Of a DNA stretch of 51,489 bases, positions 18,168-20,076 are shown in pieces. The notes under the pieces are model-generated. The model saw only the letters and a list, made by a program, of their open reading frames with translations. It was not told the DNA's origin and did no database searches. Location: assembly GCA_018065935.1 (NCBI GenBank), contig JAGHSJ010000209.1:1-51489 (forward strand). The letters run 5' to 3'. This DNA is from Candidatus Kurthia equi (GTDB lineage Bacteria; Bacillota; Bacilli; Bacillales_A; Planococcaceae). Position 1 is the first letter of the stretch; each line of letters opens with the position of its first letter. Both the position numbers and the translations under genes were made by a program.

Positions 18168-18725
18168 ATGTCTAAACCAGTAGTAGATTTAGCTTCAGAA
18201 AAAATGACTAAAACGATCTCTGTATTTTCACGTACACTTGCAAACATTCGTGCAGGACGTGCAAACGCTTCTTTATTAGATCGTATTAATGTTGAATATT
18301 ATGGTGCACCAACACCATTAACTCAAATGGCTGGTATTAGCGTACCAGAAGCTCGTCTTTTAGTAATCGCACCTTATGATAAAACAATCTTAGGTGATAT
18401 TGAAAAAGCTATCATGAAATCAGATATCGGTATTACGCCAACAAATGATGGTTCTGTTATTCGTTTAACAATTCCAGCATTAACAGAGGAACGCCGTAAA
18501 GAACTTGTGAAATTAGTTAAAAAAGAAGCTGAAGAAGCTAAAGTTGGTATTCGTAATGTTCGTCGTGATGCAAATGATGAATTCAAAAAGCTTGAAAAAG
18601 CTGGCGAAATCACAGTTGATGACTTACGTGGCTACGAAGAAGACGTTCAAAAACTAACTGACAGTAGTATCACTAAAATCGATCAATTAGCTGCAGAAAA
18701 AGAAAAAGAAGTTCTTGACGTTTAA
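18168..18725 (+). CDS. frr: Ribosome recycling factor
   Basis: [28 protein letters not shown]. Confidence 0.98.
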
Positions 18726-18930
18726 TCGTTAGAACCTTGTGCTAGATGGTGGCGTCCTATATTTAAAAAGGGCGTCATTTTTTTATGATACAAGTATGAA
18801 CACATGTATAACTTAGTTAATAGGAAGCTGTGGTTACAATTGAGTGGGCAAGTTGAAAGATACGTAAGAGTGAAGGAGGCTAAGTTTGGAACGCGACGTC
18901 GTGTGGGTTGCAGGGCGTACCGTTTTGAGC

Positions 18931-19024
18931 AGGCGTTCGTTCTTTTCGATGGTGTCTAGAAAAAAACGCCTACAAGCTATGTGACACTTCGGTATCTCTG
19001 GAAAAAGTGAGGGGCATTTACTTT
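18931..19024. repeat. Intergenic repeat element copy 1 (80-nt conserved core 18931-19010)
   Basis: Core matches 19060-19139 at 79 of 80 positions; internal inverted repeat aggcgtt/aacgcct. Confidence 0.95.
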
Positions 19025-19059
19025 TTCTTCGATCCCTGCAGTGCACTCGCTTGCGGGAG

Positions 19060-19154
19060 AGGCGTTCGTTCTTTTCGATGGTGTCTAGAAAAAAATGCCT
19101 ACAAGCTATGTGACACTTCGGTATCTCTGGAAAAAGTGATAGGGCATTTACTTT
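19060..19154. repeat. Intergenic repeat element copy 2 (80-nt conserved core 19060-19139)
   Basis: 79/80 match to copy 1; the one core difference (aacgcct to aatgcct) keeps pairing as G-U. Confidence 0.95.
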
Positions 19155-19290
19155 CAACTCGGTGCTTGCAGTCTGCGTGAGTGTGAACGAGCGGTTTTGA
19201 CTTTTCTATTAAATAGAGGAAATGTGTTGATATTTTTGTTATGATATATGGAGTGTACGTTCCGATTTGTAAGCTAGTGGAGGATTCTAA

Positions 19291-20076
19291 ATGTTAGATA
19301 AACTCGGATGGAAAAAATCAGATAAAGTAGTTCAATCAGTAAGTGAACGTATGGAGAATTTGCGGAAAGATGATGTGCCGAACCATATTGCCATTATTAT
19401 GGATGGGAATGGACGTTGGGCGAAAAACCGTGCAATGCCGCGTTTTGTTGGTCATAGAGAAGGTATGCAAAATATTCGTCGTATTACAAGAGCAGCTAAT
19501 AAATTAGGTGTGGGTGCGATTACTTTGTATGCTTTTTCAACAGAAAACTGGAAAAGACCCTCTAAGGAAGTTGAATTCCTTATGCGTTTGCCAGAAGAAT
19601 TTTTAAATTCATTTATTCCTGAATTAATGGAATTAAATATTCGTGTTGAAATGATAGGTGAGATGGAAGGGGTTCCTGACTATACAAGCCGTGCAATTCA
19701 ACATGCAATGAAAGAAACGATGAATAATGATGGTATGGTACTGAATTTTGCTTTTAATTATGGTAGTAGACGTGAAATTGTTTTAGCTGTTCAACAGCTA
19801 GCTAAAATGGTTCAAGATGGAACGCTTGAGCCTCAAGAAATTACAGAAGACCTGATTACAGAGTATTTAATGACAGCGAAATTACCTGAACCAGATTTAT
19901 TGATTCGTACAAGTGGAGAAATTCGCTTAAGTAATTTCTTATTATGGCAATTAGCTTATACTGAATTTTGGTTTACAGAAGTACATTGGCCAGAATTTAC
20001 GGATGAGCGTTTAATTGAAGCCATTGAAAGTTTTCAAAAGCGCAATCGCCGTTTCGGTGGATTGAAGGGAGAATAG
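19291..20076 (+). CDS. uppS: Undecaprenyl diphosphate synthase (isoprenyl transferase)
   Basis: HIAIIMDGNGRWAKNRAMPRFVGHREGM; LSNFLLWQLAYTEFWFTE. Confidence 0.96.
   Translation: MLDKLGWKKSDKVVQSVSERMENLRKDDVPNHIAIIMDGNGRWAKNRAMPRFVGHREGMQNIRRITRAANKLGVGAITLYAFSTENWKRPSKEVEFLMRLPEEFLNSFIPELMELNIRVEMIGEMEGVPDYTSRAIQHAMKETMNNDGMVLNFAFNYGSRREIVLAVQQLAKMVQDGTLEPQEITEDLITEYLMTAKLPEPDLLIRTSGEIRLSNFLLWQLAYTEFWFTEVHWPEFTDERLIEAIESFQKRNRRFGGLKGE

Follow-up and report, generated by a model that had tools for sequence, protein, structure and literature searches.

What occupies the gap between frr and uppS in Candidatus Kurthia equi, and what is repeated there? In the window (the whole stretch of 51,489 nucleotides analyzed here), frr stops at 18725 and uppS starts at 19291 in the open reading frame listing, which leaves a gap of 565 bp. 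It holds two 80-nt copies, at 18931–19010 and 19060–19139, which are identical at 79 of 80 positions, differ solely at C18967/T19096 and are spaced 129 bp apart. The original prediction, whose gap length, two copies and single difference are borne out by the coordinates and the alignment, took the 80-nt core as the repeating unit and proposed that it might fold as a pseudoknot through two interleaved pairings. The letters required are all present: AGGCGTT at 18931–18937 and AACGCCT at 18965–18971 on the one hand, GTGTC at 18952–18956 and GACAC at 18983–18987 on the other. When up to three mismatches were allowed, a 26-nt fragment of the core had just these two sites in the window and none in 100 shuffled sequences.

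The 80-nt core results from reading a tandem array in the wrong frame; the true unit measures 129 bp and starts at 18952 (Table 1). The core is made of the 3′ foot of one unit, the spacer and the left arm of the next unit: copy 1 joins the foot of a unit 0 (18931–18951) to the left arm of unit 1, and copy 2 joins the foot of unit 1 to the left arm of unit 2. The core is bounded by a unit foot on one side and by a hairpin apex on the other, position 19010 being the last but one paired base before the apical loop of unit 1, which argues against the core as the repeating unit. The array in the window thus comprises one whole unit, one hybrid unit and the foot of a third. The ~140 bp that precede this foot are recognized by neither of the two covariance models introduced below (R1 and R2) and probably represent the decayed unit 0. 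As for the minus strand, where a known protein family would have spoken against a repeat, the 107-aa open reading frame matches no Pfam family above cut-off; it is the tandem array read backwards, with the internal repeat KCHIACRxFFLDTIEKNERL. Open reading frames of this type are a likely source of false gene calls.

Table 1. Features of the frr–uppS locus, in window coordinates
Feature	Position	Strand	Basis
frr, ribosome recycling factor, upstream gene	18168..18725	+	open reading frame; orthologues in seven congeners
frr terminator-like hairpin and T run (GGCGTCC...GGGCGTC ATTTTTTT), directly 5′ of the inserted array	18748..18786	+	sequence; congeners
Inserted DNA that congeners lack; probably what is left of unit 0 after decay	18791..18930	+	gap comparison (L127–L130); inference
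Unit 0 3′ foot AGGCGTTCGTTCTTTTCGATG, same as unit 1 3′ foot	18931..18951	+	local alignment, 21/21
Unit 1, complete 129-bp long hairpin (GTGTCTAG...CTTTTCGATG)	18952..19080	+	R1, R2, G007 unit
Unit 1 outer stem, 5′ strand AACGCCT, pairs with 19060–19066	18965..18971	+	minimum free energy pairs; equivalent stem of relatives
Unit 1 apical hairpin; near-identity between copies stops inside it at 19010	19000..19028	+	fold
Unit 1 outer stem, 3′ strand AGGCGTT; earlier taken as start of copy 2	19060..19066	+	minimum free energy pairs
Unit 2, direct tandem, hybrid: left arm like unit 1, right arm of another type	19081..19209	+	R2; arm identities
uppS, undecaprenyl diphosphate synthase, downstream gene	19291..20076	+	open reading frame
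107-aa open reading frame, spurious	18834..19157	-	open reading frame listing; Pfam search

The core motif GTGTCTAG-n-GCCTA-n-GACACTTCGGT resembles what we take to be an abundant intergenic sequence of Bacillaceae. A scan with the pattern GTNTAGNTCCAGCGCCTAG recovered at least 120 stretches, mostly from Bacillus-type genomes, in which full-length copies mostly measure 113–123 nt, each folds as one long imperfect hairpin and some stand in tandem at 124–125-bp spacing. Two covariance models were built without any window sequence: R1 from an alignment (A1) of 36 sequences, 35 of them Bacillaceae-type and one from the taxonomic family of the window, and R2 from an alignment (A3) of copies of the window's family. 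With filters off, R1 returned a single significant site in the window, at 18952–19078, spanning model positions 1–125 of 125 (23.7 bits, E=9.3e-5; next-best E=0.58). R2 recovered unit 1 at 18952–19078 (48.4 bits, E=7e-9) and unit 2 at 19081–19208 (26.6 bits, E=6e-4), with nothing further in the window below an E of 0.6, and located two more units across the whole genome (C422:9182–9308 and C156:20971–21097). The congener G007 carries 27 units, several at 129-bp pitch; unit 1 is identical to one of them at 91 of 129 positions from end to end, with a score of 48 against shuffles that never exceeded −6.5.

The unit is ~120–130 bp long, typically starts with (N)TGTCTAG and ends with CTTTTC, and has a head-to-tail pitch of 120–130 bp in the family, both the window and G007 showing 129 bp. 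The window units belong to this Bacilli family of GTCTAG long-hairpin repeats, which we define here. That the repeat has other copies, as originally expected, is confirmed by the covariance models, which find units elsewhere in the genome and in other genomes. The BLASTN search suggested for this purpose, run with a 97-nt core, returned the two window copies as its only matches in the same genome and nothing from 60 relatives, from plasmids or from phages, and nhmmer with a Bacillaceae profile did not detect the window copies. We consequently discarded plain blastn as a route to the family, which is seen only via the structured motif and the covariance models. Bacillaceae-1 RNA is a structured RNA found in Bacillaceae; the units exceed the gathering threshold of neither it nor any other of the 4227 models of Rfam 15, the window region and 16 further unit-bearing loci having only unrelated sites matched at the limits used. 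A search of the open-licence literature, including by sequence letters, found no description of the repeat, for which an earlier name is possible. The family is apparently unnamed and, in our view, new, although it belongs to a kind already described.

Within the window's family, R1 detected units in 66 of 101 genomes and in 16 of 19 genera; across the class, it did so in 30 of 251 genomes from about nine families. Copy number ranges from 0 to 96 within the window's family, the four genomes in which more candidates were scored holding 96, 49, 44 and 41 copies. Units occur singly or in tandem, and head-to-tail arrays are common. Many of the 49 adjacent pairs found in arrays are only 50–80% alike, and neighbors are often of different sub-types. 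The repeat is chromosomal: a typical unit had no match in 50,697 phages and one match in 72,556 plasmids, on a 690-kb plasmid record, and the exact pattern was present in three viral contigs.

Several further observations concern the surroundings of the units. Arrays of two to three units are present in several rRNA operons of genome G068 (L197, L200, L204, L208, L212 and L216); they lie in the 16S–23S spacers, a few bases before the 23S start and in rRNA orientation, the rRNA having been recognized from sequence, so the units tolerate transcription there. At six loci (L015, L029, L088, L096, L109 and L117), a sub-type starting with GTCTAGCTACGGCTCC or GTCTAGTTGCGGCTCC appears inserted inside main-type units, generating nested mosaics, and hairpin modules of the CACAGGATGTG type recur beside units. 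A typical Bacillaceae unit is also carried by L027, a record titled Chryseobacterium sp. ISL-80 (a Bacteroidota name), which is probably a misnamed or contaminated assembly.

The hairpin is supported by strong covariation, a check that the original prediction had called for: 25 of the 30 pairs in the 36-sequence alignment show compensatory, two-sided change, and the covariation score of 0.453 (0.162 in shuffles) was reached by none of 500 shuffles. Internal helices far from the foot covary as well. Other copies and covariation, whose joint absence would have counted against a conserved element, were therefore both found. Such compensatory changes fit the folding of RNA and of single-stranded DNA alike. 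Unit 1 retains most of the model pairs; unit 2 does not, and its fold is no better than that of shuffled sequence (z=+0.87).

Of the two interleaved pairings, AGGCGTT:AACGCCT is a slipped version of the intra-unit outer stem formed by 18965–18971 and 19060–19066. GTGTC:GACAC is not kept, such a partner for the first five bases of the unit being available in 10 of 196 units versus 32 in the shuffled control; nor do 12 congeneric units show any compensatory change. We rejected the pseudoknot since one half is the ordinary outer stem and the other is not maintained across units. The accompanying argument that the single difference between the copies preserves a G–U pair fails because the outer stem of unit 2 has lost its own 3′ partner.

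Unit 2 differs from unit 1 in an uneven manner, the left arms being 98% identical and the right arms 61%. In the 49 other adjacent pairs, drawn from many genomes, the arms mostly agree, with mean identities of 0.77 and 0.76. The right arm of unit 2 scores 28 against the right arm of the C156 unit and 8 against unit 1. Judged by these arm comparisons, unit 2 is a hybrid, with a unit-1-type left arm and a right arm nearest another unit type of this genome. It was probably overwritten in part, at a later time, by a conversion or exchange tract spanning the unit 0/1 junction and the unit 1 left arm. The 80-nt near-identity is best read as this tract, which would extend between the foot of one unit and the apex of its successor.

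Comparison with congeners indicates how the array arrived. The equivalent frr terminator-like element of congeners is directly followed by the uppS promoter region: in G001, G002, G003 and G007, the four congeners compared (three further ones were returned in reverse orientation and went unread), the site is empty and consists of the frr terminator, a short stretch and the uppS promoter region, with no unit. The sequence of the window that matches these congeners is split at ~18790 and ~19209, corresponding to an insertion of ~420 bp, or just over three units. The earlier view that units inserted separately, as opposed to a simple tandem duplication of the gap, is upheld.

A second hairpin repeat provides a further set of filled and empty sites. 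In G007, the joined flanks of one single-unit site constitute a ~120-bp hairpin repeat, R. Many R copies of this genome are empty, with a continuous match of up to 98% (L283, L285, L287 and L289), whereas in at least five others a single unit is present at an identical bond, following GAAGCAATCCTTTCTTT (L298–L303). The units sit at TTTCTTT|, with TTTCTTT on their left side; they are of clearly different sub-types, and the R flanks are almost identical. The sequence that follows the CTTTTC end of the unit varies between filled copies (TTTTCTT, TTCTG, GTTTAT or GTTTTT), no constant target duplication is visible and three of the five filled copies lack matching flanks. These same-site insertions could alternatively descend from one filled ancestor in which the unit was later exchanged, which counts against mobility. 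R itself (GAAATAACGAGGACTCCTGCCG...CGTTATTTC) gave ~50 matched pieces in each of the two congeners G007 and G001, the G001 loci being L284–L296.

The position of arrays relative to genes is also biased. In Bacillaceae, 27 of 103 arrays have, at most 70 nt away on their 5′ side, a terminator-like hairpin with a T run in the orientation of the element; the opposite orientation gives 9 and shuffled sequence 1.65. Arrays are in sense versus antisense orientation to codirectional genes at a ratio of 52:19, and they occupy convergent versus divergent gaps at 21:4, gene context being taken from long open reading frames and not from curated annotation. The replication-strand bias in G120 (34 of 45, a hand tally that assumes that the contig starts at dnaA) is indistinguishable from co-orientation with genes. 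Roughly one in four Bacillaceae arrays has a leader, TAAGAAAGTATAAAATTTTG, ~30 nt before its first unit (for example L038:3990–4028, L103 and L125); this leader also precedes other repeat types. It is not common to arrays of the window's family, and we did not retain it as a family feature.

We interpret the units as a chromosomal, non-autonomous stem-loop mobile repeat, similar to REP/BIME and MITE elements and widespread in Bacilli, and consider this reading probable. Terminators, the T-rich arm of R and the CTTTTCTT foot of the unit have in common a hairpin arm beside a T-rich tract, from which we infer an insertion rule: units would always enter in the same orientation and 3′ to a hairpin arm that bears a T-rich tract, the candidate targets being terminators, other hairpin repeats and the CTTTTCTT foot of an existing unit. 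Oriented insertion behind a T-rich tract would explain the head-to-tail arrays of unlike units, the placement after co-oriented genes and the rarity between divergent genes. This rule is consistent with, and not proof of, an HUH-type single-strand mechanism. The moving enzyme would be supplied in trans, and a hairpin-recognizing HUH transposase of the IS200/REP type would best fit clean, oriented insertion. A more specific proposal, which we advance tentatively and regard as doubtful in its entirety, is that the units form a Bacilli-wide class of mobile long hairpins whose oriented, target-duplication-free insertion behind hairpins and T-tracts (terminators and their own 3′ foot) yields heterotypic arrays, the trans-acting enzyme being an unusual HUH/Y1 protein or a type so far unlinked to such repeats.

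RAYT-like Y1 transposases are one candidate for this enzyme. They were detected in 31 of the 66 genomes with units versus 5 of the 35 without (Fisher p=0.001, phylogeny not controlled), and several unit-rich genomes are devoid of any Y1 protein. No unit lies within ~3 kb of RAYT-like genes at the ~37 places inspected, five of which are in genomes without units; the single unit match among these places, L267, adjoins a Y1 gene of IS200 size. We did not retain RAYT as a partner, as the association is statistical and lacks physical linkage. The window's family commonly encodes RAYT-like Y1 proteins of ~195–290 aa, as a rule one or two in each genome (for example G120:C1:796449 and 2996222).

The leading alternative holds that the units are functional structured RNAs, acting for example at mRNA 3′ ends, in processing or in protein binding, which are under selection and whose spread is secondary. 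The very strong covariation argues for this role, as do transcription of the G068 units in the 16S–23S spacers and the properties of the minus strand: its RNA is the more stable in 95 of 100 Bacillaceae units, and G·U exceeds A·C on it by 77:33 in the Bacillaceae set. This excess is a hint of strand-specific selection, which would not be needed for DNA that is simply mobile. However, the window's own family shows the asymmetry weakly (44:34, p=0.31), and we abandoned it as a test for RNA, as it is significant in Bacillaceae and not in that family. The better-paired strand is, moreover, mostly antisense to the upstream gene, the 52:19 bias running the other way, and no conserved promoter was seen on this strand of the units. 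A copy number of 0 to 96 within one family, a frr–uppS locus that is empty in congeners and a unit 2 that no longer folds also argue against an RNA role, which we therefore judge unlikely and do not adopt as the main reading.

Alternatively, the units could be MITEs that carry short terminal inverted repeats and depend on a DDE transposase, with duplication of the target site. Size, copy number, intergenic position and the filled and empty sites would all fit, and 5-bp direct repeats flank 10 of 130 arrays versus 3.5 expected, a weak excess that leaves room for a target-duplicating enzyme. The ends, TGTCTAGCTCC and GCTTTTCTTA, are nevertheless not terminal inverted repeats, only the sub-terminal AGCGCCT and AGGCGCT being complementary. 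No duplication of fixed length accompanies the filled R copies, although short ones are possible, and an orientation bias would not be expected. We assign this explanation a low probability.

It is very improbable that the main role of the units is to terminate transcription intrinsically or to insulate neighboring genes from each other. Their letters do suggest termination: a strong stem precedes CTTTTCTT, the A run of the left foot in this genome (AGAAAAAAACGCC) and the T-rich tract of the right foot would be terminator-like in both directions, a pattern scan flags 19048–19064 and the units are placed after gene ends. Yet the 27 Bacillaceae arrays noted above already follow a terminator-like site, as the window array follows that of frr; the G068 units lie just upstream of the 23S rRNA in its orientation, where strong termination would be costly; and covariation extends to helices distant from the foot. 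The model of a pseudoknotted 80-nt RNA core that was duplicated under selection has a negligible chance of being correct, for the letters allow its pairing but one half of it is not kept across units, its boundaries are those of a unit foot and a hairpin apex, and near-identity does not follow its limits in the 49 other adjacent pairs.

How does the mobile stem-loop repeat favored here relate to described systems? REP and BIME elements are moved by RAYT in an oriented manner and without long target duplication. Like the units, they are chromosomal hairpins with a short conserved motif at the 5′ foot, high copy number and a tendency to form arrays. REPs are, however, 20–40-bp palindromes with GTAG or CGTC tags (PMC3733652), or GGAG, whereas the unit is 120–130 nt long with a GTCTAG foot and falls outside that definition; RAYT genes are flanked by their repeats, and no examined RAYT gene is flanked by units. 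MITEs resemble the units in being small, non-autonomous and hairpin-forming and in inserting into other repeats, but the units have neither terminal inverted repeats at their very ends nor a constant target duplication, and no parent transposon was identified. The nearest described kind is that of the bacterial stem-loop-containing repeat (SLS) families, which include bcr1 of the B. cereus group, BOX and RUP (Cozzuto et al. 2008, PMC2267715). In the sections of that survey considered here, which covered B. anthracis, B. halodurans and B. subtilis, SLS families are likewise intergenic and dispersed, share one conserved secondary structure, number tens of copies or more and have no coding capacity. 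The Bacillus families listed in the same sections measure 72–76 and 167 bp compared with 120–130 bp here; heterotypic head-to-tail arrays of this pitch are not described there (PMC2267715).

The window holds a small, partly decayed example of a repeat that reaches ~100 copies per genome at most, extends across many Bacillus-type families and forms a strongly covarying hairpin, yet is absent from Rfam 15. The repeat is located at the 3′ ends of genes and in rRNA spacers, and it gives rise to false open reading frames on the minus strand. If the insertion rule proposed here is true, the family would provide a testable system for the movement and array formation of non-autonomous hairpins in Gram-positive bacteria.
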